Positions 1 to 24,033 are shown, counted from the first letter of the stretch. The stretch: 29,460 nt of DNA from a virus (IMGVR_UViG_3300028559_001723:1-29460), one strand, 5' to 3'. Made by a program: numbers and translations. Notes: a model not told the origin generated them from the letters alone.

Positions 1-695
1 GTAAATGTAACTTTATAGTAATCTGAATCATAGTTATAACTATTAAATCCAAATCTATTACATACCAATTCAAATAACTCTTCAATAGACGCGGAAACTT
101 TACCATTATAACTATTTGAGTCAAATTCAATAGTGACCTCAATTGGTCCATCGTGAAGGTGTGGTAAATGTTTAGAAGGTCGGTAATAATCAAAATATAG
201 ATTAATTAATTCATATTTTTCAAAAATTTCTTTCAAATCTTTTTCATCGGGCCATTCAAATTCATTATCTAACTTCTGATCTGGTTTTGAAAAATAGAAA
301 GATAAGAATGTAAATTTAGCATCACCTTGATTATTTGCTGAGGGCCAGGTTCCAAGTTTCATATCATACATTGTCCAATCTTCATCTTTCAATCTACCAA
401 AAACTGATTGCATTTGATTAGTAACTGATAATAAATCCGAATAATCTTTTATATCTTGAAATACAATGATAAACTGACCTCTAATCAAACTTCCGGTATT
501 TATAATTGGTTTAAATCCTAAATAGTTTGAATTCTTATCAATATAATCATGGTATCTCATATCATCAATTGTTGATTTGAATAATATATTTCTATCATCA
601 TCTAAAAAGTCTCGCATAGCATCGATAATAGAATGTATTTCATTTTCTTGAGAATGTGACTCTTTTATTAAATTAAATCTTTTTAAGTGTTTCAT
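1..695 (-). CDS. Tagged phage protein, C-terminus outside window
   Basis: The reading frame is open from the ATG at 695 to the left edge, so the C-terminus is missing. It begins MKHLKRFNLIKE, the same short tag that opens the next six genes of this operon. After the tag comes a helical stretch (IIDAMRDFLDDDRNILF) that resembles the LKDIFxDLKDDG helix of its neighbours, then a mixed alpha/beta sequence rich in aromatic and acidic residues. I see no catalytic motif and do not recognise a family. The 9-base element AATATATAA lies exactly 3 bases before the ATG. The tag is consistent with a T4-type capsid-targeting sequence (I-K-E at residues 10-12), so the protein may be packaged in the head; that is inference. 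Confidence 0.8.
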   Translation of the reverse strand, partial: MKHLKRFNLIKESHSQENEIHSIIDAMRDFLDDDRNILFKSTIDDMRYHDYIDKNSNYLGFKPIINTGSLIRGQFIIVFQDIKDYSDLLSVTNQMQSVFGRLKDEDWTMYDMKLGTWPSANNQGDAKFTFLSFYFSKPDQKLDNEFEWPDEKDLKEIFEKYELINLYFDYYRPSKHLPHLHDGPIEVTIEFDSNSYNGKVSASIEELFELVCNRFGFNSYNYDSDYYKVTF

Positions 696-698
696 AAT

Positions 699-707
699 TT
701 ATATATT
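699..707 (-). promoter_or_regulatory. AATATATAA element, 3 bases before start
   Basis: Minus-strand AATATATAA followed by ATT and the ATG at 695. It has the exact spacing seen at eight other genes of this window. It resembles the T4 late promoter TATAAATA, but an AT-rich translation signal is the alternative. Confidence 0.45.
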
Positions 708-719
708 TTCTAATATACT

Positions 720-1190
720 TCATTTTATAAATTGAATTCTTATTGATTGATTTTCTTGAATATATCCACCTACTTCTAAATCATCTATATCAATTCTACT
801 AACTTCATCTTCGGATGGATCTGAACTATATTCTGTATTAAAAAACAATCTATATTGAAATTCCAAATCCTCCATATAGTTAATAGTTCTTTTTATAGCA
901 TCAATAAAAGATTGACTTATTTCATTTTCATTATATTCTGACTGGAACTCTTCATCATCATCTTCGTCATCATCATCTTCGAAGTCTCTCTTAGTTGGTT
1001 CTTCACTACCAAATGATATATAAACCTCATAATAGTCTCCCTTTTCATATCCTTCTATTTGTTCTCCATCAACCCAAAAATACCAATAATCTTCAGGGTT
1101 AGAATCTTTAATATCTGTTAAAATATCTTCAAGATCAGATTTAATATCATCCATAGATTCAAATATCTTATATGTCTTTAAATGTTTCAT
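720..1190 (-). CDS. Tagged LKDDG-family phage protein with acidic run
   Basis: A 156-residue acidic protein that opens with the tag MKHLKTYKIFE (I-F-E at 9-11). It follows the pattern of its paralogues downstream on the map: a first helix (DLEDILTDIKDSN), a beta region, a second helix of the type AIKRTINYMEDLEFQYR, and a final beta strand. An almost pure Asp/Glu run lies in the middle (about residues 71-83). Its start overlaps the stop of the upstream gene (1187-1666) by 4 bases (ATGA), so the two are likely translationally coupled. I know no function. Family membership is read by eye from the shared helix pattern. Confidence 0.8.
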   Translation of the reverse strand: MKHLKTYKIFESMDDIKSDLEDILTDIKDSNPEDYWYFWVDGEQIEGYEKGDYYEVYISFGSEEPTKRDFEDDDDEDDDEEFQSEYNENEISQSFIDAIKRTINYMEDLEFQYRLFFNTEYSSDPSEDEVSRIDIDDLEVGGYIQENQSIRIQFIK

Positions 1191-1666
1191 ACTTCTAATA
1201 CAAATTGACCTCTGTAAGGCTTGAAATCTTCTTTTCTCATAACTGTAATAACAGTTAATGTAAATTCATTATCACCTGGTTCTAATTGACAAACGATATT
1301 TAAATAAGATTCTTTATTCTTTATTACAAATCTATTTGGTTCACCTGCTTTAACTCCACGAGTTGGATAATCATCTTCATCTTGATAAATATCAAATACA
1401 TCCTGCATTAGTGCAATTGTCAATTCTTCAACTCCTGCCTCGATATTATCTAATATTTCATCTTTTGATATTTCTGCTTCAATTTTACCGCTGGTGTCGG
1501 TAACACCGTGTCTATATTGTCTTGAAAGTGCATGACCAATAGCTTCAACATCAATTCTAATTTCAACTGATTGTTTAATATCACCAATAAATTGTGGTGG
1601 TCTTCTATCCATTAGTTTCGGACTAATATACCCGTTAGCTTCTTTAAATGATTTTAAATATTTCAT
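1187..1666 (-). CDS. Tagged phage protein, different body
   Basis: A 159-residue protein starting MKYLKSFKEANG, so it carries the tag but with F-K-E rather than the usual [LI]-x-E. The body differs from the LKDDG paralogues: a helical region around residues 60-95 is followed by beta-rich sequence ending in LTVITVMRKEDFKPYRG and FVLEV. It overlaps both neighbours by 4 bases (ATGA junctions), which places it firmly inside the operon. I do not recognise the family. That the same tag sits on unrelated bodies argues that the tag is a separate signal rather than part of one fold. Confidence 0.8.
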   Translation of the reverse strand: MKYLKSFKEANGYISPKLMDRRPPQFIGDIKQSVEIRIDVEAIGHALSRQYRHGVTDTSGKIEAEISKDEILDNIEAGVEELTIALMQDVFDIYQDEDDYPTRGVKAGEPNRFVIKNKESYLNIVCQLEPGDNEFTLTVITVMRKEDFKPYRGQFVLEV

Positions 1667-2250
1667 ATGTCCCAGTTTTGTATCTCACCTTTTATATCCA
1701 GTGTGAATCTAATAGAATAGTCATTTCCCTTTTTCCATATATCATCTATATTGATTGGTTTATAAGAGTAGAATGGACAAAAACAAAAATTAATAAGCTG
1801 ACCTTTTTTAGTATCCTCAAATATTTTTAGTTTATCTTCTGTTAGAATATTATTAACATCTTCATCTCGGAGTCTTTCAATTACATAATTGAAAGTATCG
1901 GGCGGCTCATCAATTAAGTTAAGTATTTTTTCTCTATTTAAATCAGTAACCATTATTCCTTTGATCATTGCTACCTCCTTATTACCATCTTCAATTTGAT
2001 TGTTAAAAAAATCAGCATCCCTTTTTTTATAATCGTGTGCATAATATCCATTGAAAAAGAAAACTGAACTTGGAAATATATCATATTTTTCAAGAATCTC
2101 ATCTATATGTGGGAGAATCTCATCATACATATTATTAACTTCTCTTATTGTCTCCATGCTAAAACCATTTGCATTAGTGAATGGAACATCATATGGGTCT
2201 ATTTTTTTAGCTTCATTTAGAAAGCTGTTAATTTTCTTTAAATATTTCAT
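1663..2250 (-). CDS. Tagged phage protein
   Basis: A 195-residue protein starting MKYLKKINSFLNEA; L-N-E at residues 11-13 followed by Ala is a textbook match to the T4 prohead protease cleavage rule. The body (helix METIREVNNMYDEILPHID, then ADFFNNQIEDGNKEVAMIKG, then a beta-rich end) is unlike its neighbours and I do not recognise it. No membrane segment or catalytic motif is visible. It is preceded by AATATATAA with a 3-base gap to the ATG, and its stop overlaps the next start (ATGA). Possible role as a packaged internal protein is inferred from the tag only. Confidence 0.8.
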   Translation of the reverse strand: MKYLKKINSFLNEAKKIDPYDVPFTNANGFSMETIREVNNMYDEILPHIDEILEKYDIFPSSVFFFNGYYAHDYKKRDADFFNNQIEDGNKEVAMIKGIMVTDLNREKILNLIDEPPDTFNYVIERLRDEDVNNILTEDKLKIFEDTKKGQLINFCFCPFYSYKPINIDDIWKKGNDYSIRFTLDIKGEIQNWDI

Positions 2251-2253
2251 AAG

Positions 2254-2262
2254 TTATATATT
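2254..2262 (-). promoter_or_regulatory. AATATATAA element, 3 bases before start
   Basis: Minus-strand AATATATAA, then CTT, then the ATG at 2250. Part of the nine-gene set with identical spacing. Confidence 0.45.
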
Positions 2263-2267
2263 ATTTT

Positions 2268-3191
2268 TTAATAAATTATTATTCCAAGTTCGTGAAATTC
2301 TTCACTACCATATTCTTCTATAAATTCATCTAATGAATAAAATTCATTTTCACTTACTAATTCAATATCAATATTTAAATCATATTCTGATATAAAAGAT
2401 TTAAGTTTAAAAACAGTAGGTAAAATGTGTTCATTAAATATGAAAAAATTATATTTATTATCTTTTAAATCTATATTAATTGAATTTTTTAGTTCCGAAT
2501 CATCTGATTCTTTCCACGATTTTGTAGAATACTTTCTATATCTTCCGACAATAGCATCAACATCTATTTCATGATCATCTTCCAAATCTCTTAAAATATC
2601 TTTTACATCATCAAAAATAGATTCAAGTTCATTGACATCAACAGATTCTTTAACACTTACCGAATCATCAATATCTTCTTCCTCATCTTTAAATGTTAAA
2701 TCTAAATAAGAAACATGTCTTAGAGAACTTTTTTTAGCAAACGGTAATTCATTAATATATCTTTCCATTGTATCTACATTATTAAACCAAACACCATCAA
2801 AGGTTCTTAAATAAATACTAGATAATTGTAGGTTAAATTCAGATTCTACATGTTTAATTGCTGATTCTAATTCACTAAAAAGATTATCTTCTATACTAAA
2901 AGATGACTTGTTTACACTCACCAATCTAATTGAGAAACTCTTATAACTACCCACATATCTTCCATCTGGTCCCAAAATCGTTGAGAATTCGTTATGATCT
3001 GTAACTATATCTCTATCACCCATAGATAAAGCATGTCCTGAATACACATCTTCAACTGCAAGACCACAATCTTTCACATGAATAAATATATCGGAAATTT
3101 CCTCTATTATATTTTGAGCTGCTGCACCATCAATGTTGATGTCAAGTTCTTCATTTAGTTTGAATGAATTATATGTTTTAATGTGTTTCAT
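2268..3191 (-). CDS. Tagged LKDDG-family protein, two domain copies
   Basis: A 307-residue acidic protein starting MKHIKTYNSFKLNEE (L-N-E at 12-14). The body appears to hold two copies of the family domain. The first opens near residue 28 with IIEEISDIFIHVKDCGLAV. The second opens near residue 188 with ELESIFDDVKDILRDLEDD. Each opening helix is followed by beta-rich sequence and a further helix. The two are joined by a very acidic linker (DEEEDIDDSVSVKESVD). Only 3 bases separate it from the stop of the upstream gene. No function is known to me. The duplication suggests expansion by tandem copying and fusion, as also seen in the gene at 3630-4484. Confidence 0.8.
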   Translation of the reverse strand: MKHIKTYNSFKLNEELDINIDGAAAQNIIEEISDIFIHVKDCGLAVEDVYSGHALSMGDRDIVTDHNEFSTILGPDGRYVGSYKSFSIRLVSVNKSSFSIEDNLFSELESAIKHVESEFNLQLSSIYLRTFDGVWFNNVDTMERYINELPFAKKSSLRHVSYLDLTFKDEEEDIDDSVSVKESVDVNELESIFDDVKDILRDLEDDHEIDVDAIVGRYRKYSTKSWKESDDSELKNSINIDLKDNKYNFFIFNEHILPTVFKLKSFISEYDLNIDIELVSENEFYSLDEFIEEYGSEEFHELGIIIY

Positions 3192-3194
3192 AAC

Positions 3195-3203
3195 TTATAT
3201 ATA
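3195..3203 (-). promoter_or_regulatory. TATATATAA element made from upstream stop codon
   Basis: Minus-strand TATATATAA formed by the last codons (Tyr-Ile-stop) of the gene at 3195-3626, followed by GTT and the ATG at 3191. The stop codon is the last three bases of the element. Confidence 0.4.
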
Positions 3204-3626
3204 AAAATCTAAATAAATTGTATGCGGTCTTGTTTTTTCATCTATCTTAAATTCTTTAGTACTAAGTCCATTCCAAATATACTGAGTGAGATCTCTTTCA
3301 TCCAAATAGATATAAAATCTATCTGGACTAAATCCATGTAATGCATATCGTGCTTGATATTTATAGTCGAGTGATTGCATTAAAGAAACCGCTTCTTTAA
3401 GTGAACATACAACATCATAAGAAGTAAAATTAATTATTTGATTTACATCCGTAGGATTTGTAATCTTTACACCTATCGAAGATACAAGAATACCAATATC
3501 ATTAACCACTTTTTTTGGAAAATACTCTACTTTATATCCATCATCTTTTAAATGTATAAATATGTCCTTCAATGATTGAATATCATTTTCTATAACAGAT
3601 TCGTTAAAAGATTTAATATGTTTCAT
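3195..3626 (-). CDS. Tagged LKDDG-family protein, single domain
   Basis: A 143-residue protein, the simplest member of the family. It has the tag MKHIKSFNES (F-N-E at 7-9), then SLKDIFIHLKDDGYKVEYFP, a beta region, a helix LKEAVSLMQSLDYKYQARYA, then DRFYIYLDERDL and a final strand ending in DFYI. Almost every element aligns with the second half of the protein at 3630-4484 (LKDLFLDLKDDNFDV, YMKDLGYTYTSRYI, KFYIYQDERNL, LRFYI), so the two are clear paralogues. I do not know a function for this family. Confidence 0.82.
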   Translation of the reverse strand: MKHIKSFNESVIENDIQSLKDIFIHLKDDGYKVEYFPKKVVNDIGILVSSIGVKITNPTDVNQIINFTSYDVVCSLKEAVSLMQSLDYKYQARYALHGFSPDRFYIYLDERDLTQYIWNGLSTKEFKIDEKTRPHTIYLDFYI

Positions 3627-3629
3627 GAG

Positions 3630-3638
3630 TTATATATA
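3630..3638 (-). promoter_or_regulatory. TATATATAA element made from upstream stop codon
   Basis: Minus-strand TATATATAA built from the Tyr-Ile-stop end of the gene at 3630-4484, then CTC and the ATG at 3626. Confidence 0.4.
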
Positions 3639-4484
3639 AAAACGTAAATCTATTCTGGTGATATCTGGCCAAACTAGATCCATAGTGTGGCCTGAGAATC
3701 GTAAATTTCTTTCGTCTTGATAGATATAAAATTTACAAGAAGTTCCAGATGATGCAATATAACGAGACGTATAAGTGTAACCTAAATCTTTCATATACCA
3801 TGTAGCTCTTTTCAAAGTATCCGAGATATCTTGATTTATATTGAAGTAGGTTGTCAGTTCATTTTTTATTACAACTCTATACTCGTCACGACCAGATTTA
3901 TCTTTAAGTTCATAAAGTCTAACATCAAAGTTATCGTCTTTCAAATCTAAAAATAGATCTTTTAAATATTCAAAATCTGCATCAAAATTATTATTTTCGG
4001 TGATTCTTCTCTTTAATTTGTGTAAATCTTCCCAATATATTTTAGTCGGATCAAACACTACTTCGATTCTTTTAAATCCTTTATGTGGATATTTAGATAA
4101 CTCATCTATCTCAAGATAGTCTTGTACGATATCAGCATCTTTGTTATATCTGTTAACTTTTACACAACCTAATCCTCTTGAATCCCAATTTTTTGAACCT
4201 AATTCATAATCTAATGAGAACATATAATCATTTATTCTATGAATACTTTCTATAATTTCTTCATTTATAATATAATTTTCATTGCTCGAAAATATATACA
4301 CAACTGGAAAGTAAAATCTACCTGGTTGATAATAGAATTTATCGACTTTTATAATATATCCGTCATCTTTTAGTTCGTATAACATATCTTCTAAATCCTG
4401 ACAAATTGATTCTATTTCATCTTTATTAAATGAATCAAGAAGTTCAGAATTTTCAAAAATTGAGTATTTTATTAGATGTTTCAC
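3630..4484 (-). CDS. Tagged LKDDG-family protein, two domain copies, GTG start
   Basis: A 284-residue protein that begins with GTG at 4484; the GTG is supported by the tag MKHLIKYSIFEN (I-F-E at 9-11) and by the AATATATAA element 3 bases upstream. Copy one of the family domain runs from about residue 24 (SICQDLEDMLYELKDDGYII) to 150. Copy two runs from about residue 165 (YLKDLFLDLKDDNFDVRLYE) to the end, and is the closest relative in the window of the protein at 3195-3626. It is the first gene of the tagged operon after the endonuclease gene at 4488. Function unknown. Confidence 0.8.
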   Translation of the reverse strand: MKHLIKYSIFENSELLDSFNKDEIESICQDLEDMLYELKDDGYIIKVDKFYYQPGRFYFPVVYIFSSNENYIINEEIIESIHRINDYMFSLDYELGSKNWDSRGLGCVKVNRYNKDADIVQDYLEIDELSKYPHKGFKRIEVVFDPTKIYWEDLHKLKRRITENNNFDADFEYLKDLFLDLKDDNFDVRLYELKDKSGRDEYRVVIKNELTTYFNINQDISDTLKRATWYMKDLGYTYTSRYIASSGTSCKFYIYQDERNLRFSGHTMDLVWPDITRIDLRFYI

Positions 4485-4487
4485 TTA

Positions 4488-4496
4488 TTATATATT
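4488..4496 (-). promoter_or_regulatory. AATATATAA element made from endonuclease stop codon
   Basis: Minus-strand AATATATAA; its last three bases are the stop codon of the GIY-YIG gene. It is followed by TAA and the GTG start at 4484. Confidence 0.4.
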
Positions 4497-5654
4497 ATTC
4501 TTATACTTCCAAATAAAACCACCAGCTGATTTATATTTACCTTTACAACAAGTCACTATTGAATTTCCACCTATTTTCAATTCTTTTGTAACATCAACAA
4601 TAGAGTTCCATTCTTTTATAAACTCACCTGTATTGGAAAATTGAATGACCTGTTTGATCGTTTTATTTTTATATTTCTGTGGTGGTGAATCTTCAGAGTA
4701 TCTCCAAATATAACCCTTTGATGATTTTAATCTACTCACACAACAATCTTGTATATTTCCCTCATTAAAACCAAACGATGCGGCCTCTTTGATGGATTCA
4801 AATGATCTAATCAAATTACCTTCTAAGTCATATTGTGAGACTTTTCTTTTTTGATAATTCAACCTATCTAAATCTATATCTATAAATTCGTCTTTATATC
4901 TCCAGATAAAACCACCAGTCGTTACCGCCTTATCTCTACAACAAGATGCAATATTAGTATTTTGATAAAAGTCTGATGCCTCTCTAACACTTTTCCATTC
5001 CTTCAATAATTGTCCGCTTAAATCAAACTGTAAAACAGTTTTTGTTGGATTAGAAGCACATTGTTTTTTCCACACTCTCTCATCCTTCAAGATACCTTGT
5101 TCTTTAAGATTTGTGAAAATTGTTTTTTCACTACAATTATAATATTCAGAAAGCTTTGGCATAGATAAATTTTCAACTATATACCTTTGATATAAATCAT
5201 CTTTTTCAAGAATATAAACTTTCGGCTGAAACTTTACATAATCTGAATCGAGTGATTTATCTAAAAGAGATTGACTAATTTTTTGTTTATGGTCATCAGA
5301 TAATTTCAATCCTTTTTTTGACTGACTCATTTTTTTTCTTGACTCTTCGGAGTGCTTCATTCCTTCAGCACCATCACCGCCAATTGTCATATTTAACAGC
5401 TTATGACCATCTTCTCTATACTTAGCAATCCAATAAATCTCTCTCTCCTTCCAAAGTGTCACTGACACCTTTTCAATTATTTCTAAGACTGGTTTTTGTC
5501 CTCTGTTTATTATTGATTTTAACCAATTAAATTTGTGCAAGTTGTGTCTATCTTTTGTGTGTTGATAGAGTCTTCTCCTAGGATTATTGGATTTACCAAT
5601 ATATCTGACGTTACCATTCTCATCAGATATTTTGTATATATATGTCTCTTTCAT
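4488..5654 (-). CDS. GIY-YIG homing endonuclease with NUMOD3 and three IENR1 repeats
   Basis: A free-standing homing endonuclease of 388 residues. The nuclease domain covers about 4-92: YIYKI at 5-9 and RYIG at 17-20 form the GIY-YIG pair, Arg26-28 and the glutamates at 70-72 are the likely catalytic residues, and MTIGGDGAEG closes the domain. A NUMOD3 DNA-contact region follows (SEESRKKMSQSKKG and SDDHKQKISQS). The C-terminal half has three IENR1/NUMOD1 repeats of about 65 residues, each with a hydrophobic start (VLQFDLSG, VSQYDLEG, VIQFSNTG), a CCxxK core and an end of the GGFIWRYK type. It sits between the neck gene and the tagged operon, and its stop codon forms the regulatory element of the next gene. 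Its own start region is a hairpin (5659-5688). Confidence 0.93.
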   Translation of the reverse strand: MKETYIYKISDENGNVRYIGKSNNPRRRLYQHTKDRHNLHKFNWLKSIINRGQKPVLEIIEKVSVTLWKEREIYWIAKYREDGHKLLNMTIGGDGAEGMKHSEESRKKMSQSKKGLKLSDDHKQKISQSLLDKSLDSDYVKFQPKVYILEKDDLYQRYIVENLSMPKLSEYYNCSEKTIFTNLKEQGILKDERVWKKQCASNPTKTVLQFDLSGQLLKEWKSVREASDFYQNTNIASCCRDKAVTTGGFIWRYKDEFIDIDLDRLNYQKRKVSQYDLEGNLIRSFESIKEAASFGFNEGNIQDCCVSRLKSSKGYIWRYSEDSPPQKYKNKTIKQVIQFSNTGEFIKEWNSIVDVTKELKIGGNSIVTCCKGKYKSAGGFIWKYKNNI

Positions 5655-5698: not shown

Positions 5699-6478
5699 TC
5701 ACTTTTTCACGAGATAAAAGAAACCTGAATTTGACTGTCCTTTGATCTCTTCCTCTGCTTCTTTAATTTCTTCTTTACCTTGTGTGATCATATCTGCACC
5801 GTTGATTTTTATGTTTCCGGGAAGTGTAAAATCATACCTTCCAGTTAAATTACCATATTGAACTTTAGACCATCCAGTAACAAATTTTAAAAATAAGTCA
5901 TCTCTGAATAAATATTCAGGTCTTATATTGGCATAAGCCTCAATAATTACATCATGTTTAACTGCTGTTAAAATATGTAATCTGTGTTGAAGTTGATTAT
6001 AGTGAAATTTAAGTGTATATTTATTTAACTGATTTAACATATCAGACATTGAATCCAACATAGTTTTATAAACTCCTAATTCACCAATTGTTGTAACATA
6101 TGATGATAAATAAGGCTGATTTGTAACTCCAAGATTTACTGAAAGATTTGGTGTGTTTATCCCTAATTGAAATAAACTTGATCCTCTTACTTCGTATAGA
6201 TAAGATACTGATTGTATTTCACAAGGTACATCAACATAGTTATACTTTGTAAATTCTTCGGTGTAGAATGCTTCTTTATCAATTTTATAGTATATTTTCT
6301 GAACAGCGTATTGGTACCATCTATAGAAATATGGAAGAGCTCTAGTTTCAATTATTCTTCTTATTTCTGAATCTGGTAAGACTTTAGGAAGGGCGCAACC
6401 AACTGTTATTTCATTTTGTATGAAATCTATAAATTCTTCGATTGATAATCCATTATCATAAGGTACGTAGTCTGCCAT
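5699..6478 (-). CDS. Neck protein, T4 gp13-like
   Basis: Likely head-completion (neck) protein that joins the filled head to the tail. The best evidence is the C-terminus: LPGNIKINGADMITQGKEE aligns with T4 gp13 LPGGVTIDGQRLIEEA in spacing and charge, and the preceding FVTGWSKVQYGNLTGRY matches the gp13 YATALAKELNGQILARH. The N-terminal part (LPDSEIRRIIETRALPYFY) matches the gp13 region where a short Pro-containing loop leads into a helix. I choose the ATG at 6478 (MADYVPYDNG, 259 residues). The longer frame from 6517 would run through an AATATATAA element (6498-6506). It stands alone here, with an endonuclease on one side and a glycosyltransferase on the other. Assignment rests on remembered T4 sequence. 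Confidence 0.75.
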   Translation of the reverse strand: MADYVPYDNGLSIEEFIDFIQNEITVGCALPKVLPDSEIRRIIETRALPYFYRWYQYAVQKIYYKIDKEAFYTEEFTKYNYVDVPCEIQSVSYLYEVRGSSLFQLGINTPNLSVNLGVTNQPYLSSYVTTIGELGVYKTMLDSMSDMLNQLNKYTLKFHYNQLQHRLHILTAVKHDVIIEAYANIRPEYLFRDDLFLKFVTGWSKVQYGNLTGRYDFTLPGNIKINGADMITQGKEEIKEAEEEIKGQSNSGFFYLVKK

Positions 6479-6497
6479 TTTGTCAATTAGAATTTTC

Positions 6498-6506
6498 TTA
6501 TATATT
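6498..6506 (-). promoter_or_regulatory. AATATATAA element before neck gene
   Basis: Minus-strand AATATATAA, 19 bases before the ATG at 6478. It argues against the alternative start at 6517, which would lie upstream of it. Confidence 0.4.
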
Positions 6507-6534
6507 AAATAAAACAAACCATGTTATTCTACAC

Positions 6535-6542
6535 TATAAATA
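6535..6542 (+). promoter_or_regulatory. TATAAATA, T4 late promoter-like
   Basis: Exact match to the T4 late promoter consensus TATAAATA, 17 bases before the ATG at 6560. Confidence 0.45.
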
Positions 6543-6559
6543 ATAAAATATAATTGGGT

Positions 6560-7669
6560 ATGAAAAAAATAGGTCTTTGTATGATTGTTAAAAATGAGGC
6601 ACACGTTATAACAAGATGTATGGACTCACTAAAAAGACTTATTGATTATGTTTTAATAATTGACACTGGTTCAGATGATAATACAATTGATGTTATAAAT
6701 TCTTGGCTTATTGAGAATAAAATTCTTGGTGAGGTAATTTCGGAACCTTGGAGAGATTTTGCTTATAATAGAACTTTTGCTCTTGAAAAATTGAGAGAAA
6801 AGAGTTTTATTGATTATGCTTTAATGATAGATGCTGATGAGATATTAGTTTTTGAAGATGATTTTGATGTTACTAATTTTAAAAACTCTTTAGAATCTGA
6901 TATCTATGATATAGTAACTAATATGAATGGGTTTATCTATAATAGACCAACTTTAACAATTAATTCAAAAAATAGTAAATATGAGGGGGTTGTTCATGAA
7001 TTTTTGGTTATGGATGGATCTCAATCTAGAGGAGTTGCTAATGGATTCTATAATAGACCTATTCAAGATAGTGATAGAAATAGAGGAGAGAACAAATTTT
7101 TAAAAGATGCTAAGTTAATAGAAGATGCTCTTGAAGGAGAATTATCGGAATGGTTTAGATCTAGATATACATTTTATCTAGCGCAGTGTTATAGAGATGG
7201 TGGTAAGCCCGAATTATCATTGACTAATTATTTATTAAGAGCAGAACAAGGATTCTGGGAAGAAGAAGTCTACATAAGTTTATACACAGCTGCAAATATT
7301 ATGAAAGATTTAGGATATCCAAAGGAGGAAATTTTAGAAACATATCTTAGAGCTAATGATGTAGTACCATATAGAGCTGAGGCTCTATATGGTTATATTA
7401 ATTATTGTAGATTAAATGGTTTAAATCAAAGAGGATATATCATTGGAAAACATGCTATGAATATTACATGTCCAAGTAATTCTTTATTTATCGAGACTTG
7501 GATATATAATTATGGAATTATAGATGAATTCTCAATAGTGGCATTTTGGGCGGGACATTACCAAGAAAGTAAAGAAGCTTGTGAGAGATTATTAAGTGAA
7601 AATAAAATACCCGACTATTATTATGATCGGGTAAAATCTAACTTACAATTTGCAGTTGATCGACTTTAA
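6560..7669 (+). CDS. Family 2 glycosyltransferase with helical repeat tail
   Basis: Predicted to transfer a sugar from a nucleotide-sugar donor. The GT-A fold is visible from the start: LCMIVKNEAHVITRCMDSL (6-24), DTGSDDNT (35-42) for nucleotide binding, and the metal-binding DADE at 91-94. From about residue 190 the sequence is helical with tetratricopeptide-like spacing (FYLAQCYRDGGKPELSLTNY, YISLYTAANIMKDLGYPKEE). I use the ATG at 6560; a TTG two codons earlier is possible. It is transcribed away from the neck gene and converges on dnaJ with a 4-base overlap of the stop codons. In phages such enzymes decorate DNA, virion proteins or host glycans; the substrate cannot be told here. Confidence 0.85.
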   Translation: MKKIGLCMIVKNEAHVITRCMDSLKRLIDYVLIIDTGSDDNTIDVINSWLIENKILGEVISEPWRDFAYNRTFALEKLREKSFIDYALMIDADEILVFEDDFDVTNFKNSLESDIYDIVTNMNGFIYNRPTLTINSKNSKYEGVVHEFLVMDGSQSRGVANGFYNRPIQDSDRNRGENKFLKDAKLIEDALEGELSEWFRSRYTFYLAQCYRDGGKPELSLTNYLLRAEQGFWEEEVYISLYTAANIMKDLGYPKEEILETYLRANDVVPYRAEALYGYINYCRLNGLNQRGYIIGKHAMNITCPSNSLFIETWIYNYGIIDEFSIVAFWAGHYQESKEACERLLSENKIPDYYYDRVKSNLQFAVDRL

Positions 7670-7681
7670 ATAAAGTTTTTA
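7663..7681 (+). terminator. Weak terminator at converging ends
   Basis: Short stem ACTTT/AAAGT around AAAT, followed by a run of T. It overlaps the stop codons of both the glycosyltransferase and dnaJ. The stem is only 5 bases, so the call is weak. Confidence 0.25.
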
Positions 7682-8709
7682 CTTTCTTTTAATGATTCTA
7701 AAATATTACGCTCTTCCATTGTTAGAGACTGTGGCATTTTAATATTTACTCTAATAAAAAGATCTCCTACTCTTCCAATTTGTAAATCTGGAACTCCACG
7801 ACCTTGTACTCTAAGAGTCTCCTTGTGTGAAGTACCAGGTCTTATTGTAAATTTAATATCTCCATTTGGTGTTTTTAGAAGTATTTCTTTACCAAGTATG
7901 GCATCAATTACCGAAATTGATTGGTCATAAATAAGATTGTTATGTTCTCTTTTAAATAAATCATCTGGCATTTCTTCAATTTGAATTATTAAATCACCAA
8001 ATGTATCTACATTCTTGCCCCAATTTCCTTGACTAGACATATTAAATGTCATTCCATTTGCTGCTCCTTTTGGAATTTGTATATCAACTATCTCTTGATT
8101 CGGCACTGTGCCGTTTCCTTTACAATTTGAGCAGGGATTTCTGACTTGTGTTCCCTGACCTTGACAAGAATTACAAACAATTTGCTGCTGAATAGTACCA
8201 AAAGGAGTATTTTGAACAACTCGTCTTTGACCAGATCCATTACATGAGTTACATGTCTGTACATCCTTACCACCAGCACCACCACACGGATTACATTTTG
8301 TCTGTCTAATATATTTTAGTTTTTTATTAGCACCATTTATAACTTCATCTAGATTAATAGAAACGGTCATTCTTAGATCCGAACCTTTTCTGACTCTATT
8401 TTGTCTTCCTCCTTGTCCAAAGAAATCACCGAATCTTGAAAATATATCTTCAAATCCACCAAATCCACCACCAAATGGATTCCCACCGCCTCCACCAACA
8501 GTTCCAAATTGATCATACTGTTGTTTCTTTTGTGGATCGGAAAGCACATCAAATGCTTCAGCACAGTCTTTAAATTTCTCTTCAGCTTGTGGATTATCTG
8601 GATTCTTGTCAGGATGCCACTTCATAGCCATTTTTCTATATGACTTTTTAATTTCATCATCTGATGATCCTCTGTCAACTTCAAGTATTTGATAATAATC
8701 TTTACTCAT
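7666..8709 (-). CDS. dnaJ: DnaJ (Hsp40) co-chaperone, complete type I
   Basis: A complete type I J-protein of 347 residues that stimulates DnaK ATPase and delivers unfolded clients. The J domain has WHPDKN with the HPD at 32-34. A Gly/Phe-rich linker spans about 66-102. The zinc region has four CxxCxGxG repeats with cysteine pairs at 139/142, 153/156, 179/182 and 193/196. The two substrate-binding domains and a short tail follow. Nothing essential is missing, in contrast to T4, which encodes no J-protein and uses the host one. It is the last gene of a grpE-unknown-dnaJ operon. A TATAAATA element lies 23 bases before the ATG. Confidence 0.96.
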   Translation of the reverse strand: MSKDYYQILEVDRGSSDDEIKKSYRKMAMKWHPDKNPDNPQAEEKFKDCAEAFDVLSDPQKKQQYDQFGTVGGGGGNPFGGGFGGFEDIFSRFGDFFGQGGRQNRVRKGSDLRMTVSINLDEVINGANKKLKYIRQTKCNPCGGAGGKDVQTCNSCNGSGQRRVVQNTPFGTIQQQIVCNSCQGQGTQVRNPCSNCKGNGTVPNQEIVDIQIPKGAANGMTFNMSSQGNWGKNVDTFGDLIIQIEEMPDDLFKREHNNLIYDQSISVIDAILGKEILLKTPNGDIKFTIRPGTSHKETLRVQGRGVPDLQIGRVGDLFIRVNIKMPQSLTMEERNILESLKESKNFI

Positions 8710-8732
8710 ATTACTTTAAATTCTTTTTATTT

Positions 8733-8740
8733 TATTTATA
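8733..8740 (-). promoter_or_regulatory. TATAAATA before dnaJ
   Basis: Minus-strand TATAAATA followed by AAATAAAA, 23 bases upstream of the dnaJ ATG. The same longer string, TTATAAATAAAATAAAA, precedes the gene at 22943-23440. Confidence 0.4.
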
Positions 8741-8757
8741 ACAAAAATCATACCACA

Positions 8758-9300
8758 TCAAATATCTAATTGTTTTGATATTTTTACATCTCGTATTTCT
8801 TTTTGGATATTTGAGACATTTAATGATAGGATATAACTAATTTTTGATGCTATATAATCTTCAACAATCAGTGTAAGTATCTCACCATCTGTATCTAAAT
8901 TTTTAAAATCATTTAATATGTTATGATTCTTTTTAAATTTATCAGATATAAAAGTTAAAAATTCAACTAAATTAAATTGTAGTTGAAACAATTCTAATCT
9001 TTTACTTTCAATTGAAGATACTAACATACTCGGTGGATTTATAAAAAATTTGGAATATGCTCTTCTAATAGTTGGAAGAATATATTCTAAAAGATTACTT
9101 CCTTCTGGATTATCTTCTGTTTTATTTCTTTTCTCTATGAAAATTGAATCATCAAATAAGTGATAATGTAAAGTTGTTGTATCCTTATATAATTCTTTTA
9201 GATGTAATATATCATCTGGATGACTTAGACCTTTACATAAAGCATCATAGAGCACATTATTATCAAATTCTTTTAGAGATTTTGAATCCTTAAAATCCAT
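8758..9300 (-). CDS. Unknown protein between grpE and dnaJ
   Basis: A 180-residue, mostly helical protein that I do not recognise. It starts MDFKDSKSLKEFDNNVLYDA and its start codon overlaps the grpE stop by one base (TAATG), so it should be translated together with GrpE. Charged helices alternate with hydrophobic stretches (LLEYILPTIRRAYSKFF, LFQLQFNLVEFLTFISDKF). There is no membrane segment, zinc site or known motif. Its place inside the chaperone operon suggests a role in folding, for example as an adaptor or a client, but this is inference from position only. Confidence 0.75.
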   Translation of the reverse strand: MDFKDSKSLKEFDNNVLYDALCKGLSHPDDILHLKELYKDTTTLHYHLFDDSIFIEKRNKTEDNPEGSNLLEYILPTIRRAYSKFFINPPSMLVSSIESKRLELFQLQFNLVEFLTFISDKFKKNHNILNDFKNLDTDGEILTLIVEDYIASKISYILSLNVSNIQKEIRDVKISKQLDI

Positions 9301-9797
9301 TATTTAGAAAGAATAATTTTAGGATATCTAAAAGGCTTACCATTAATTTTATAACCTTTGGAGACAATATCTATTATTTTAGACTCACCAGTTTCAATTA
9401 TTGAGATAACTTCGTGTAAATCCGAATCATACTCATCAGTTTGAATTTCTTCAATTCCTTGAGACTTTAAAGAAGTGTGAACTTTATTTAAAATTAGATT
9501 TAATCCTTCGGAATCTGGCATATTTTTCTTCGCAATATATAAATCATTGTCTAGATCTAAAATAGTACTCAAAGACTTCGTTTTGGTGTCTAGAATCAAA
9601 TCTTCTTTTTCCTTTTGAGCTCTCCTTTTATAGTTGTCAAAATCTGCATATAATCTCAAATACTGATCTTTATAATCAATATTATTCTCAACTAAAGTTT
9701 CAACGGTTGTTTGAAACGGTGAGTTTTCAGCTGACATAGGATGTTCTTCTTTTACTTTTTCAAAGTCTGTTGGATTGTTAAATCTTTTTGTTTTCAT
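9300..9797 (-). CDS. grpE: GrpE nucleotide exchange factor
   Basis: GrpE releases ADP from DnaK. Signature parts are YKDQYLRLYADFDNYKRR (the long helix leading into the conserved FDNYKRR), a four-helix region, and the C-terminal beta part with GIEEIQTDEYDSDLHEVIS and VSKGYKINGKPFRYPK. At 165 residues it is of normal to slightly short length. The ATG at 9797 overlaps the end of the HNH endonuclease by 20 bases; the second ATG at 9737 (MSAENSPF) would avoid the overlap, and both keep the conserved region. It heads the grpE-unknown-dnaJ operon. Confidence 0.92.
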   Translation of the reverse strand: MKTKRFNNPTDFEKVKEEHPMSAENSPFQTTVETLVENNIDYKDQYLRLYADFDNYKRRAQKEKEDLILDTKTKSLSTILDLDNDLYIAKKNMPDSEGLNLILNKVHTSLKSQGIEEIQTDEYDSDLHEVISIIETGESKIIDIVSKGYKINGKPFRYPKIILSK

Positions 9798-10545
9798 TAA
9801 TTTCTGTTTTTATTTTATAATAATAATTTTTCTTACATCTATCATTACAATATTTTCTATTTATTAGATTTTCATCACAAAATAGACATTTGGTATCGTC
9901 AATTATATCTTTTTTAATATACCTATTTACCTTACTACACAATGGTTGTAAATTATCATAATGATTTAATTTAAATATTTCTTCTTCACTATTTGCAGAT
10001 ATAGTTGGTATTATATGATCTATATCCCATCCATTATTAAATTCACCATTATATAGACCATAATTATCCCAGTTCATCCATGGTTCAAATTTAGATTCTA
10101 AATATAGTTTAAATTCTTCAAATGAACATCCAACAATATTGAAAGTTTTTGATGTCTTTTTATATCCATTTTCTTTAAATGATTTGACTATTAACGTTCT
10201 TATATTTTTACTTAATTTAAATAAATTATCACTTAATAGTCTATTACTCCTATAACTTCTTTGATATTCTTTTATTTTTTCTATATTTTCCTCATAATAT
10301 ACTTCCTTATATTCTTTTATTTTTTCTTTATTTTCTTTCCTGTAATTTTCATTATAGATTTTTTTACATTCTTTATTTTTCTCAGTATATTTTTTTTGGT
10401 ATTCAGATATTTTTTCTTTATTATTATCAGCACGTTCTTTAACTTTTTTTATTTTATGTTCTCTATTATCATCATAATATTTTTTTATTCTGTCTTTATT
10501 TTTTTTATAATACTCTTTAAGGTACTCTTTTCTTTTTAAGTCCAT
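9778..10545 (-). CDS. HNH homing endonuclease with Lys-rich helical arm
   Basis: A 255-residue HNH nuclease. The catalytic core is near residues 170-205: WDIDHIIPTIS (D-H pair), then LNHYDNLQPLCSKVNR with the second Asn and His/Asn positions, then KKDI. The first 95 residues are an extreme Lys/Glu/Tyr helical array built on the repeat KEYxKKNKExIKxY, which reads as a DNA-binding arm. A C-terminal zinc knuckle is CLFCDENLINRKYCNDRC. The stop lies 20 bases inside grpE, as expected for an element that inserted next to it. The start codon is part of an AT-only hairpin that also contains AATATATAA. Confidence 0.85.
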   Translation of the reverse strand: MDLKRKEYLKEYYKKNKDRIKKYYDDNREHKIKKVKERADNNKEKISEYQKKYTEKNKECKKIYNENYRKENKEKIKEYKEVYYEENIEKIKEYQRSYRSNRLLSDNLFKLSKNIRTLIVKSFKENGYKKTSKTFNIVGCSFEEFKLYLESKFEPWMNWDNYGLYNGEFNNGWDIDHIIPTISANSEEEIFKLNHYDNLQPLCSKVNRYIKKDIIDDTKCLFCDENLINRKYCNDRCKKNYYYKIKTEINENKKI

Positions 10546-10574
10546 TTTAATATATTTTATTTTATATATTAAAA
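10545..10574 (-). promoter_or_regulatory. Hairpin with embedded AATATATAA over HNH start
   Basis: Perfect 11-base arms (10545-10555 and 10564-10574) around an 8-base loop. The 3' arm ends on the first base of the ATG. The minus-strand AATATATAA (10562-10570) lies in the 5' arm. The layout matches the hairpin before the GIY-YIG gene at 4488-5654, although here it is made only of A and T. Confidence 0.45.
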
Positions 10575-10584
10575 TTTTCTCCTT

Positions 10585-11070
10585 TCAATAATTGAAAGAA
10601 AGTAATTTTTTTACATTGTTTGAAACAAAAAAATCATAAGTACCCATTTGGTCAGTCACTTTAATTATATCAAGTTTTTCAATGTTTTTCTTAAAGATAT
10701 CAATATAATCTACTAAATCAATTAATGATTTTTTAAAAACTAAATCAGGAGTCCAATAGTCTGGAAACTTATCCAAGAACTTATCAACCGATGTTTCTAG
10801 AGTTCTTTTTCTAAGCAATGTCTGTTGATTGTTATTAATAGATTTATTACTCAATAGGTCGACTATATAAGTGTTAAATTTATGTATTAGATTTTCAGTT
10901 TCAATCGTTTTTAGCAATCCTATCACCAAAGCATCTTTTTCGGTTATTTCAAATTCTTTATTCTCTTTTAATATTTTCTCTCCTTCTTTATCGGATCCCA
11001 ATACATAATAAACATAATGGTCCCAGACACATCTCTTTATTATGTCTTCAGCGCATAAAATGATTCTCAT
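10585..11070 (-). CDS. Unknown phage protein
   Basis: A 161-residue protein that starts MRIILCAEDIIKRCVWDHYVY and is helical throughout (ITEKDALVIGLLKTIET, ENLIHKFNTYIVDLLSN). I see no motif, signal peptide or membrane segment. It lacks the N-terminal tag. It sits upstream of the HNH gene and the chaperone operon on the same strand and is divergent from the Vsr-like endonuclease, with about 47 bases between the two starts. A small palindrome (CTTTCAAT/ATTGAAAG, 10582-10598) covers its stop codon. Confidence 0.7.
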   Translation of the reverse strand: MRIILCAEDIIKRCVWDHYVYYVLGSDKEGEKILKENKEFEITEKDALVIGLLKTIETENLIHKFNTYIVDLLSNKSINNNQQTLLRKRTLETSVDKFLDKFPDYWTPDLVFKKSLIDLVDYIDIFKKNIEKLDIIKVTDQMGTYDFFVSNNVKKLLSFNY

Positions 11071-11104
11071 TTTTAATATATAGTTTATTGGTTATAATAA
11101 AAAA

Positions 11105-11112
11105 TATAAATA
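11105..11112 (+). promoter_or_regulatory. TATAAATA before Vsr-like endonuclease
   Basis: TATAAATA only 5 bases before the ATG at 11118. A second element, AATATATAG, lies further up at 11075-11083 between the divergent starts. Which one is used cannot be told. Confidence 0.35.
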
Positions 11113-11117
11113 AGTTT

Positions 11118-12197
11118 ATGAAATTTAGAATTAGGAAAACTATAAATGATGCCCAAATTGAAATTGACAACTTGAATCTTGAATTTGTCATATTGGAATA
11201 TAAATCAAATTCTCAAAAGTCAAAATTTAAACATTCTTGTGGTGAGATATTTGAGACGAGGTTATCACATCTATTAGACAGGAAGAGATGTCCAAAATGT
11301 CATGGTAAATTTAGAGATAAAGAAATGTTTCAAAAAAAGTCAAACGAAGTTCACAACTATGAATATGAAATATTAGATTTTACTAATGGAAATTCACCTG
11401 TAAAAATAAAACATAAAAGATGTAGTTCAATTTATACTCAAGTTGGAAATAGACATCTTAGAGGAGATAGATGTTTTAATTGTTACGGAAATAAAAAACT
11501 AACTAGAGAGTGTATAATCGAAAGGTCAACTTCTATTTGGAAAGGTGAATATGAAATATTATCAGACAATGTTAAATACAATGAGAAGTCGAAAATAAGA
11601 CATAAAGTTTGTGGATATGAATTTTATCAAATAATTTCATCACATTTGTTAGGAATTGGATGTTCAAAATGTGCAGGTAATTCTAAACACACTATAAACT
11701 CAGTTCAAGAAAAGTCAGATATAATTCATAATTTCGAATATAAGATATTAACCAATCCTGAAGGCTCAAAATCTAAAATAAAAATATTACATTTATTATG
11801 TGGTAAAGAATTTGAACAGGTTTTATCAGACCATTTATCTGGATGTGGATGTATTATTTGTAACATAAGTAAAGGTGAGAAAAATATTGAAAATATATTA
11901 ACTGGTTTAAATATTAACTTCACTAAACAAAAAACATTTGAAGATTGTAAATTTAAAAATAAATTAAAGTTTGATTTCTATATACCAGAAAAAAATATAT
12001 GTATAGAATTTGATGGAGAACAGCACTTCAAGCCTATAAGATATTTTGGTGGTAATAAATCGTTTGAATTACAAAAAATAAAAGATCAAATAAAAAATGA
12101 ATATTGCAATAAGAATAAAATAAAACTTATAAGGTTCAGATTTGATGAAGATCCTATTAAAATAGAGTTTGAAATAAATAAATTGATAATTTTATAA
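11118..12197 (+). CDS. Vsr-like homing endonuclease with four zinc modules
   Basis: A probable free-standing endonuclease. The first 250 residues hold four copies of a module of about 60-70 residues, each with a His/Cys start (KHSCGEIF, KHKRCSSIY, RHKVCGYEF, LHLLCGKEF), a middle of the SHLL type and a closing C-x-x-C (CPKC, CFNC, CSKC, CIIC); these look like zinc-ribbon DNA-binding units. The C-terminal about 100 residues form a Vsr-like (very-short-patch repair type) nuclease: FDFYIPEKNICIEFDGEQHF carries the Asp and Glu/His positions, and KNKIKLIRFRFDED closes the fold. This resembles the I-Bth0305I class. I prefer the ATG at 11118; the TTG at 11088 would add ten residues. Confidence 0.75.
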   Translation: MKFRIRKTINDAQIEIDNLNLEFVILEYKSNSQKSKFKHSCGEIFETRLSHLLDRKRCPKCHGKFRDKEMFQKKSNEVHNYEYEILDFTNGNSPVKIKHKRCSSIYTQVGNRHLRGDRCFNCYGNKKLTRECIIERSTSIWKGEYEILSDNVKYNEKSKIRHKVCGYEFYQIISSHLLGIGCSKCAGNSKHTINSVQEKSDIIHNFEYKILTNPEGSKSKIKILHLLCGKEFEQVLSDHLSGCGCIICNISKGEKNIENILTGLNINFTKQKTFEDCKFKNKLKFDFYIPEKNICIEFDGEQHFKPIRYFGGNKSFELQKIKDQIKNEYCNKNKIKLIRFRFDEDPIKIEFEINKLIIL

Positions 12198-12276
12198 AAA
12201 TTTTAAAAAATCATTAATTTGTTTCAAAAAAATATATATATGTTATCTTTTATAGAATAAAAAATCAAATTTAACA

Positions 12277-12486
12277 TTGAAGGATCTAATTCAAAATGAA
12301 ATTGAAACACCTGAAGGTAGTGGAACTATCGAACAAATCTATCTAACAGAACTAGGGTATGTTATGATGAGAGTTTATTTAAAAAAGAAGAGAGCTTGGC
12401 AAAATATAAAAATAGGTGATATTAAATCAATGTTAAATGGTACTTCTTATAAAGTAGGTAAAAATTTTAGTATTAAGAGATTTTAA
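12277..12486 (+). CDS. Small basic unknown protein, TTG start
   Basis: A 69-residue protein with a probable TTG start; the frame opens after a stop at 12253 and has no ATG before residue 30. The sequence (EIETPEGSGTIEQIYLTELG, then VMMRVYLKKKRAWQNIKIGD) looks like a small beta barrel with a basic tail. I do not recognise a family. Its stop codon sits directly before and partly inside the AATATATAA element of the next gene. Coding status rests on good spacing and plausible composition. Confidence 0.6.
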   Translation: MKDLIQNEIETPEGSGTIEQIYLTELGYVMMRVYLKKKRAWQNIKIGDIKSMLNGTSYKVGKNFSIKRF

Positions 12487-12493
12487 TATATAA
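12485..12493 (+). promoter_or_regulatory. AATATATAA element before tagged gene
   Basis: AATATATAA whose first bases belong to the stop of the upstream gene; 18 bases before the ATG at 12512. A 7-base inverted repeat (TTAATAT at 12483 and ATATTAA at 12500) surrounds it. Confidence 0.4.
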
Positions 12494-12511
12494 TTAAAAA
12501 TATTAACTTTA

Positions 12512-13753
12512 ATGTATAATTATTCAGAATTTATAACAGAAAAAAGATTAGAAGCTTTACTAGAAAGTAAATTGGTTTTATCTAATGGGTTTTTAAATGT
12601 TTTAAAGTCTATACAATCACCAGTATCTAGTTATCTTATTAGTTTAGGATCAAAAGATGTAAATTTACAACAAAACTTCATTGATTTAGGAACTGACAAT
12701 GATTCTGTTATGTTCACAACAGATAGAAAGGCTCAGGAGATTATTGGTGGTAAAGAGATACTTTACAAGGTTAGTCAAGGTGGTAGAACTCTAAGAAATA
12801 CAGATTCTAATATAAACACATTCAATAAACTTGGATTCCAAAGACCAGAAGGTGATATATACAAGCCAACAGTTGGAACTATTGGTAAGATACTATCAGA
12901 AATAGTAGGAACAAATTCTAAAATATATTGTCATTTTGAATGTACTCAGAGTCCTAATAGTTCCGATATAGGAATGAAAACTGTCATAAATAAAGAAGCT
13001 TTATCCGATCATGATGATACTCTTAGTAAAGTATGGGGCACAGCAAGAAATCCAATAAGAATCGGAAGATTAGTTAGAGCATTATATAGATCTGGAAGTA
13101 CAACTATAAGCGATTCAGAAATTGAAAAATTTGTGAATGATTATAAAGCCACAATTGATATTATTAACGATGCATTTAGTCGATTTGAAGTAGTACAAGG
13201 TTCTACAATTTCAAAATTATATAATCACGATTACTATGAGAGTGATGATGGCACATTAGGTTCATCTTGTATGGCTGATATGCCAGATTCTACATTTGAT
13301 ATTTATGTAGATAATCCAGAGGTTTGTAAGTTAGTTGTTTTATGGTCTAAAAATGGTAGTATTTCTGGTGGAAAATATAATTCAGATAAAATTTGTGGAA
13401 GAGCAATACTTTGGACAACAAGAAGCGGAGATATCTTAATGGATAGAATCTATACAAACAATGACTCTGATGTTGATTTATTTAAGAAATTTTCAAATAA
13501 AAATAACTGGTGGTGTAAGAGAAATCAATCATCTAGTAGTAATTTTACGGCTGAAAGAGGAAATGAATCAAAAATTACAGACTACATAGTAGATTTAAAA
13601 CACTGGGAAGAGCCTTATCCATATCTTGATACTCTATGTTATCTTAATAGCGGAACAGGTGAGTTAAGTAACTCTAAGGAAGATGTAAGTGCTGATCGGT
13701 TATTAAACGATACAGGTGGTGGTTATGACTATCTTGATGATGATGATGATTAA
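12512..13753 (+). CDS. Tagged phage protein with Asp tail
   Basis: A 413-residue protein that opens with MYNYSEFITEK; I-T-E at 8-10 gives the same tag type as the left operon and is close to T4 IPIII. The body has a helical N-terminal half and a C-terminal domain with KLYNHDYYESDDGTLGSSCM, then FDIYVDNPEVCKLVVLW, GRAILWTTRSGD and MDRIYTNNDSDVDLFKK. I have the impression of a domain seen in other phages, but I cannot give it a function. It ends in a run of five Asp. It is followed by a strong bidirectional terminator shared with dnaK. Confidence 0.8.
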   Translation: MYNYSEFITEKRLEALLESKLVLSNGFLNVLKSIQSPVSSYLISLGSKDVNLQQNFIDLGTDNDSVMFTTDRKAQEIIGGKEILYKVSQGGRTLRNTDSNINTFNKLGFQRPEGDIYKPTVGTIGKILSEIVGTNSKIYCHFECTQSPNSSDIGMKTVINKEALSDHDDTLSKVWGTARNPIRIGRLVRALYRSGSTTISDSEIEKFVNDYKATIDIINDAFSRFEVVQGSTISKLYNHDYYESDDGTLGSSCMADMPDSTFDIYVDNPEVCKLVVLWSKNGSISGGKYNSDKICGRAILWTTRSGDILMDRIYTNNDSDVDLFKKFSNKNNWWCKRNQSSSSNFTAERGNESKITDYIVDLKHWEEPYPYLDTLCYLNSGTGELSNSKEDVSADRLLNDTGGGYDYLDDDDD

Positions 13754-23469: not shown

Positions 23470-24033
23470 TTATTCAGTTTCGATCTCAATTTTTTCAATA
23501 TCTGTGTTAAACTCATCATCAAGTTCAATTTTCAAATCCACTATGAAGTCTTCATCAATAGAGTCAATTTCTGTATTTTTGGAAATATGACCGACTAATG
23601 TAAAGTTTTCTAATTCATACTTTTTAAATTTAACAAAACAACTTTTAATATCTTTATCAGTGAAGTCTTTAGTTTTGTCTTTTGGAATTGCTAAATCTAA
23701 AGGAATTGTTATATATAAATCATATCTCGCTTCAGAATCTGTGAATATAAATTTAATACTATCATTTATTGCTGAATATTTACTAAATTCTGATGATTCT
23801 AGTTTAAGTCCTAACTCAGCTAAAGATAGTTTTGATTTCTTACTTTCTTGTTCTTTACCTCTTTTTAGAGCATCGCTCATTTTAATTAACTCATCTTCAT
23901 CATCTGGTGATTCTACAGATTCAAAATATTTCTCTATCTTTGATTTTAGTTTAGATAGTCTTATCTTAATGTATTCTTCTGGTGAATCATATACATTTTC
24001 GTTTAAGAATTGGTTGAATTTAATAATTTTCAT
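23470..24033 (-). CDS. Tagged phage protein
   Basis: A 187-residue protein that opens MKIIKFNQFLNEN; L-N-E at 10-12 makes it a good member of the tagged set, although it lies 19 kb from the left operon. A long charged helical region follows (YIKIRLSKLKSKIEKYFES, LIKMSDALKRGKEQESKKS). The second half is beta-rich and very acidic (YDLYITIPLDLAIPKD, FIVDLKIELDDEF). I do not know a function. AATATATAC precedes the ATG by exactly 3 bases. Confidence 0.8.
   Translation of the reverse strand: MKIIKFNQFLNENVYDSPEEYIKIRLSKLKSKIEKYFESVESPDDEDELIKMSDALKRGKEQESKKSKLSLAELGLKLESSEFSKYSAINDSIKFIFTDSEARYDLYITIPLDLAIPKDKTKDFTDKDIKSCFVKFKKYELENFTLVGHISKNTEIDSIDEDFIVDLKIELDDEFNTDIEKIEIETE

Follow-up and report, generated by a model that had tools for sequence, protein, structure and literature searches.

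Candidate T4-type capsid-targeting tags on a tandem gene array and on dozens of further proteins in Mahaphage relatives

Capsid-targeting tags in T4 and comparable phages

A capsid-targeting tag has been known since the 1990s on a few proteins of bacteriophage T4. In this capsid-targeting sequence (CTS), residues 4 and 7 (Y4, F7) determine targeting and residues 8 and 10 (I8, E10) processing, the protease gp21 cutting after L/I-x-E (PMC9026906). We describe here similar N-termini in IMGVR_UViG_3300028559_001723, a full IMG/VR record of 29,460 bases (the whole stretch of DNA that was analysed, here called the window), which is probably a fragment of a larger phage genome. Seven head-to-tail open reading frames (ORFs) on its minus strand (3-4484), as well as three elsewhere, begin with such tags. 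We consider it likely that these and their counterparts in related genomes are T4-type capsid-targeting propeptides, and that the tagged proteins are packaged, cleaved, and delivered with the DNA. What is new relative to T4 is the enlargement of this system to dozens to more than 100 proteins; a literature search, which covered only a minority of subscription papers and preprints, found no paper on such an expansion.

The window appears to come from a relative of the Mahaphages, which are among the largest kinds of bacterial virus known, as judged by its RNA ligase. This ligase is 70.6% identical to that of LR745206 (634,780 bp), 66% to that of LR756502 (642,428 bp), 39% to that of LR756504 (636,363 bp), and 37% to that of LR756501 (735,411 bp). 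Clade placement rests on this identity, neither a TerL nor a capsid gene being seen in the window. These four complete Mahaphage genomes are referred to below as the 634-, 642-, 636-, and 735-kb genomes; the first two are the nearest to the window, and the other two are more distant. The hosts of the complete Mahaphage genomes (the four largest) are predicted to be Bacteroidetes (PMC7162821).

Mahaphages share with T4 IPI, IPII, and IPIII a tag of about ten N-terminal residues ending in [LI]xE, with aromatic residues six and three positions before the tag Glu (E-6 and E-3) in one of two tag classes (class B, below); bodies behind the tag that are unrelated and accessory; and an S77 protease, a scaffold core, and a gp23 protein whose cleavage site, a predicted one in Mahaphages, shows this motif too. 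They differ in having tens to more than 100 tagged proteins, where T4 has a handful; in a variant tag (class A); in tagged bodies that are acidic, those of T4 being basic; in a protease and scaffold that form one polypeptide, with tag-like 14-residue repeats; and in at least one predicted cargo polyprotein.

Two other systems invite comparison. phiKZ and SPN3US, with an S80 prohead protease, are also large phages in which numerous internal proteins are processed behind a Glu by head proteases, and phiKZ injects cargo including Tad1, directed against the cyclic-oligonucleotide-based anti-phage signaling system (CBASS; PMC13282480). Their motif, however, is A/S/G-x-E (PMC5694885), whereas Mahaphages have T4/gp23-type machinery. 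MA9V-2, a Chryseobacterium phage in culture (218 kb), has head genes of the T4 type and some eight clear tags (e.g., MKNFFQFINE/S and MKTFTYFINE/A; a slash marks the predicted cleavage site here and below), but far fewer tagged proteins than Mahaphages, and no class A array. With one cultured relative the question becomes testable, and MA9V-2 offers a practical test system.

Number, portability, and classes of the tags

Tags were scored with a two-part matrix covering the head of the tag and the six residues around its Glu, the 735-kb genome being scored with its own matrix; ORFs were called simply, without a trained gene finder, so that start sites and counts are approximate. At scores of at least 10 there were 118 matches in the 634-kb genome (1.2 in shuffled N-termini), 140 in the 642-kb genome (0.4), 51 in the 636-kb genome (1.8), and 107 in the 735-kb genome (2.6). 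When the whole training was rerun on shuffled data, the first three genomes together gave 0-2 matches, vs. 316 observed at scores above 9, and the 735-kb genome about 36, vs. 114 observed; since so many matches arise there after training on shuffled data, the first count for this genome is judged optimistic, and it would hold roughly 80 secure tags. A simpler description of the tag head, M[KR][HYF][LIV][KRNTSLI], fits 6 of the 37 ORFs in the window, for which shuffled N-termini give 0.09, and 82 of 940 and 106 of 972 ORFs in the two nearest complete genomes (about 2.4 when shuffled). An initial annotation of the window had proposed at least ten packaged proteins; ten tagged proteins are present in the window, but this underestimates the genome, if its relatives, with some 50-140, are a guide (about 118, 140, about 50, and about 80-110 tagged ORFs in the 634-, 642-, 636-, and 735-kb genomes). 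The expansion is not universal: in Lak-A1 (340 kb examined) and in Tenacibaculum phage PTm1, tags exceed the expected number slightly or not at all.

The same annotation had likened the tags to the T4 CTS, and this is supported by the recurrence of the motif in scaffold and capsid proteins (below) and by the ranking of T4 internal proteins. When 207 T4 ORFs were scored with the matrix of the 735-kb genome, which had no T4 sequence in its training, gp61.1, IPIII, and IPII ranked 1-3, IPI seventh, and the gp21-cleaved gp24 ninth; six matrices from shuffled 735-kb data did not reproduce this ranking. Independently of any matrix, [FY][IL]xE is 1.8 to 4.4 times commoner at residues 8-20 than inside proteins (4.4-fold in the 735-kb genome, p=2e-19). 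An aromatic residue at E-6 accompanies this motif in 46 of 65 N-terminal vs. 44 of 202 internal occurrences in the 735-kb genome, and in 24 of 32 vs. 42 of 211 in the 634-kb genome, a pattern of aromatics and Glu that matches the T4 determinants Y4, F7, I8, and E10. In T4 itself (NC_000866), gp61.1 (18966-19130, minus strand) has the CTS-like start MKTFKEFIKE, and may be a further internal protein.

For clustering, a looser joint set was used (score of at least 9 with either matrix), with 151, 175, 73, and 127 members in the 634-, 642-, 636-, and 735-kb genomes. Stripped of their tags, about 530 tagged proteins form 415 sequence clusters, which argues that the tag is portable. An alignment of 147 tagged proteins from the 634-kb genome reaches 90% identity in two columns only, those of M1 and of the tag Glu. 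The original statement that the bodies behind the tags differ is partly wrong for the array, where genes 2, 5, 6, and 7 match a single profile (E 8.5e-5 to 5e-29); by this measure at least four of the seven are paralogues. One might then ask whether the shared N-terminus reflects mere common ancestry, since the paralogous family in question (DIF) counts 84 members across the window and two complete relatives, 76 of them tagged. Yet some 460 further tagged proteins are spread over hundreds of unrelated clusters, and homologues occur with and without a tag. Pure paralogy, which we regard as very improbable, was rejected on the unrelated bodies behind the tags.

That the tags are A+T-rich and located at the start codon would also suit a translation-start signal, or some other element acting in RNA or DNA. 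Their synonymous codon usage, however, is broadly that of the genome, and though of variable length they retain the Glu motif at the end. On the codon usage an element at the nucleotide level was rejected, and it seems extremely improbable.

The tags fall into two classes. Class A, MK[YH][LI]K-x-[FY]...[ILF][NF]E, is dominant in the array and in the 634-, 642-, and 636-kb genomes; class B, the T4-like M..KY..F[IL][NK]E, is dominant in the 735-kb genome, from which class A is nearly absent. The aromatics at E-6 and E-3, corresponding to T4 positions 4 and 7, are present in class B, which the tags of the window RNA ligase (Y..F) and of the proteins at 12512 and 23470 resemble. Class A is the less secure of the two. 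It has a different head and spacing, often ends in FxE, and is abundant in three of the genomes and nearly absent from the fourth, so that only class B tags might package, class A being a different N-terminal signal, e.g., for another compartment or partner. However, [ILF]xE closes the tag in both classes, the next residue being mostly S, A, N, or E, and the classes interchange on homologous bodies: the family of the 12512 protein has class B tags in the 634- and 642-kb genomes and class A tags in the 636-kb genome, and a homologous pair, at 363366 in the 634-kb genome and at 385173 in the 642-kb genome, begins with MIIKKYIKFINE and MKYLRTYEGFDHLSE, respectively. Because one class can substitute for the other in this way, a common role is suggested, and a separate signal in class A appears unlikely.

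Protease, scaffold, and capsid genes of the complete relatives

A T4-type prohead protease, which the initial annotation had expected in such a genome, is encoded in all four complete relatives, as an S77/gp21-like domain beside the gp23 capsid gene. The gene order is a portal-like gene, a protein of about 700-810 amino acids, and a gp23-type capsid protein. The middle protein has the protease domain at its N-terminus, followed by a scaffold of about 10-12 repeats of 14 residues (consensus NIAYSEY[IL]AENLDK). In the four genomes, Pfam matches to the protease domain are below the Pfam cut-off (E 1e-4 to 4e-6), with the catalytic H, S, and D present. Among 69 parsed IMG/VR homologues, all have 10-12 scaffold repeats and 60 have counterparts of T4 gp21 H85/S140/D168, the other nine missing only the Ser pattern used. 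The N-terminal part of the capsid protein has an H[SA]INE/NAY site in 66 of 66 homologues, at the position of the T4 FLTE/A site; in the 642-, 636-, and 735-kb genomes the site reads QINE, QIHE, or QMNE. Residues Y-x-x-Y-[IL]-A-E of the scaffold repeat are spaced as in class B tags and as in T4 Y-Q-E-F-I-A-E, which gives the tag the look of a copied scaffold unit. Such a resemblance may be the basis of targeting, and suggests how the tag could be recognized.

Under the mechanism proposed here, tagged proteins would join the prohead core through the likeness of tag to scaffold unit and be enclosed during assembly of the gp23-like shell. The N-terminal domain of the scaffold polypeptide, which is the prohead protease, would then cut after the tag Glu, chop the scaffold repeats, and trim the capsid protein, and the freed proteins would remain in the head until ejection, when they would enter the host along with the DNA. 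The few-protein system of T4 would in this way have been expanded in huge Bacteroidota phages to a general, fast-changing payload, probably for immediate counter-defence and takeover. The strongest form of this proposal, that the largest phages deliver dozens to more than 100 proteins per virion by a scaffold-mimicking tag, some of them as polyproteins split into counter-defence enzymes, seems to us evenly balanced between true and false. If the interpretation as capsid-targeting tags is right, phages larger than 600 kb use the tag as a main way to act before phage gene expression, which would help explain part of their unexplained gene content. The tag also provides a simple sequence rule by which hundreds of hypothetical proteins can be classed as predicted injected effectors.

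The tag might instead send assembly or scaffold-associated factors to the prohead core, most of them to be degraded or lost without injection. T4 scaffold fragments largely exit the head (PMC9026906), and several tagged proteins are encoded within the head-gene region. The tagged set, however, is unlike assembly factors in being accessory, fast-changing, and enzyme-containing, and near-identical relatives differ in their tagged genes. Tagged genes, which occur in runs, make up a lower share of the genes common to distant genomes (5.7% vs. 21.8% in the 634-kb genome, p=4e-8, with the same direction in the others), and membrane-like segments are found in 8 of 500 tagged proteins, vs. 290 of 2722 for comparison. 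The set would fit an accessory, fast-changing, soluble payload, and a role as assembly factors that are mostly degraded or lost without injection seems very unlikely.

Several points weigh against the interpretation as capsid-targeting propeptides. Core binding, cleavage, presence in the virion, injection, and most cargo functions are predicted from sequence. No gp21-type protease was found in the 29-kb window, itself a fragment. The looser joint set includes some chance matches, such as the HAD-phosphatase motif MKHLLILDLDE. Class A is without the T4 aromatic at E-3, many of its tags end in FxE, outside the L/I-x-E of T4, and its matrix gives T4 IPII and IPIII scores of -2.6. Finally, the median charge of tagged bodies is -1 to -4.5 per 100 amino acids, while T4 IPIII has +5.5; basic bodies are taken here as a trait of T4's internal proteins, not as a targeting requirement.

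Putative tagged cargo and the other genes of the window

The putative cargo (Acb1-like, RNA ligase, DHH, PPK2, and NUDIX proteins) suggests that counter-defence and RNA repair begin upon entry; injected counter-defence has precedents in T4 IPI* (PMC3012670) and phiKZ Tad1 (PMC13282480). The window RNA ligase (21326-22588, minus strand; class B tag MKIHNYTQFIRE/ at 22553-22588) is of the T4 Rnl1 type over its ligase domain (PF09511 2.3e-19, phrog_562 6.2e-57). Its tag is kept in most near relatives (e.g., MKIFNYTQFIKE, MKIFNYSQFLKE, and MKLKKYLEFIKE), with varying residues behind it; in the relative L170, and in the distant 636- and 735-kb genomes, Rnl1 is untagged and starts directly at the body.

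Tagged Acb1-like 2H phosphoesterases are encoded in the 634-, 642-, and 636-kb genomes, as well as in L251, a near relative of the window (below). Like the phage Acb1 anti-CBASS phosphodiesterases they are 2H homologues (PF23474 1.4e-6 to 5e-5 in tagged genomes; PF13563 about 1e-8 where scanned), several of the matches being below the Pfam cut-off and the activity predicted; they differ in that Mahaphages and L251 carry them behind a predicted packaging tag. PPK2 is tagged in three genomes, a second copy in the 735-kb genome being untagged, and other tagged proteins have DHH, NUDIX, and guanylate-cyclase domains. The largest tagged protein found, of 1,284 amino acids (MKYISRFHLNE/), is encoded at 592352-596206 (minus strand) of LR745206.

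One tagged protein of the 634-kb genome combines an Acb1-like domain with an exonuclease domain, with the junction ...SESINE/NKMWYKTIPEILSW. In the 642-kb genome the exonuclease is separate, with the N-terminus MVSIKRFGQLNE/NNMWYKTIPEILSW and a tag ending QLNE/. Because the internal SINE/ site of the fusion falls exactly where the tag of its separate homologue ends, the fusion is suggested to be a polyprotein that the head protease would cut in two, in the one clean case found.

All seven array genes have the N-termini originally described. Gene 1 (3-695; 231 amino acids, open at the window end) has the tag MKHLKRFNLIKE/ at 660-695, and gene 2 (720-1190; 156 amino acids, very acidic, DIF family) MKHLKTYKIFE/ at 1158-1190. 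They are followed by gene 3 (1187-1666; 159 amino acids; MKYLKSFKE/ at 1640-1666), gene 4 (1663-2250; 195 amino acids; MKYLKKINSFLNE/ at 2212-2250), and three more members of the DIF family: gene 5 (2268-3191; 307 amino acids; MKHIKTYNSFKLNE/ at 3150-3191), gene 6 (3195-3626; 143 amino acids; MKHIKSFNE/ at 3600-3626), and gene 7 (3630-4484; 284 amino acids, with a GTG start; MKHLIKYSIFE/ at 4452-4484), in which the DIF motif can be seen by eye in two copies. Pfam and PHROGs scans of the seven proteins gave no convincing match, nor did a structural search with a moderate-confidence model of the gene 6 product (predicted local distance difference test, pLDDT, 68). One IMG/VR search for relatives of the array genes found none and another a single near-identical contig, the family profile being too diverse for such a search.

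Outside the array, the 12512 protein (12512-13753, plus strand; 413 amino acids) has the T4-like tag MYNYSEFITE/ at 12512-12541, and the 23470 protein (23470-24033, minus strand; 187 amino acids) has MKIIKFNQFLNE/ at 23998-24033, with tagged counterparts in both nearest complete genomes (MKIRKYIEFITE, MKIRKFTEFINE). These tags (FITE, FLNE) and that of the RNA ligase (FIRE) are as first reported, as is the agreement of eight of the ten tagged proteins with the exact [LI]xE rule: five array tags fit it (IKE, IFE, LNE, LNE, IFE) and two have F-x-E (FKE, FNE), the tag Glu lying at residues 9-14 in all ten.

The 12512 family is widespread and multi-copy in large phages, with 7-13 matches per complete Mahaphage and more than 100 IMG/VR relatives; it has invariant SCM, GR, and MDR motifs, and distant homologues in Cellulophaga phages, e.g., phi38:1. 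A confident AlphaFold model (pLDDT 87) had no match below E 1e-3 in the PDB; GNAT-like hits were weak (best E 0.011), and this identity is not claimed.

In IMGVR_UViG_3300042898_004604 (L251), whose proteins are 96-98% identical to those of the window, the array gene set differs: in the corresponding region (6001-12508), which also encodes the tagged Acb1-like gene, array genes 7, 2, and 1 are absent and a different tagged paralogue occupies the gene 4 position.

Gene starts have no Shine-Dalgarno-like motif. Starts of this kind are usual in Bacteroidota. Several other proteins of the window were read from the sequence: DnaJ (7666-8709), a GrpE-like protein (9300-9797), and DnaK (13811-15691), these three being untagged, as well as an 884-amino-acid, secreted-looking protein with PKD-like repeats (17737-20391), the C-terminus of which resembles Bacteroidota gliding/type IX secretion sorting domains. 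Three GIY-YIG homing endonuclease-like proteins were recognized in the same way (4488-5654, 15902-16735, and 20479-21372), one of their genes lying directly upstream of the seven-gene array.

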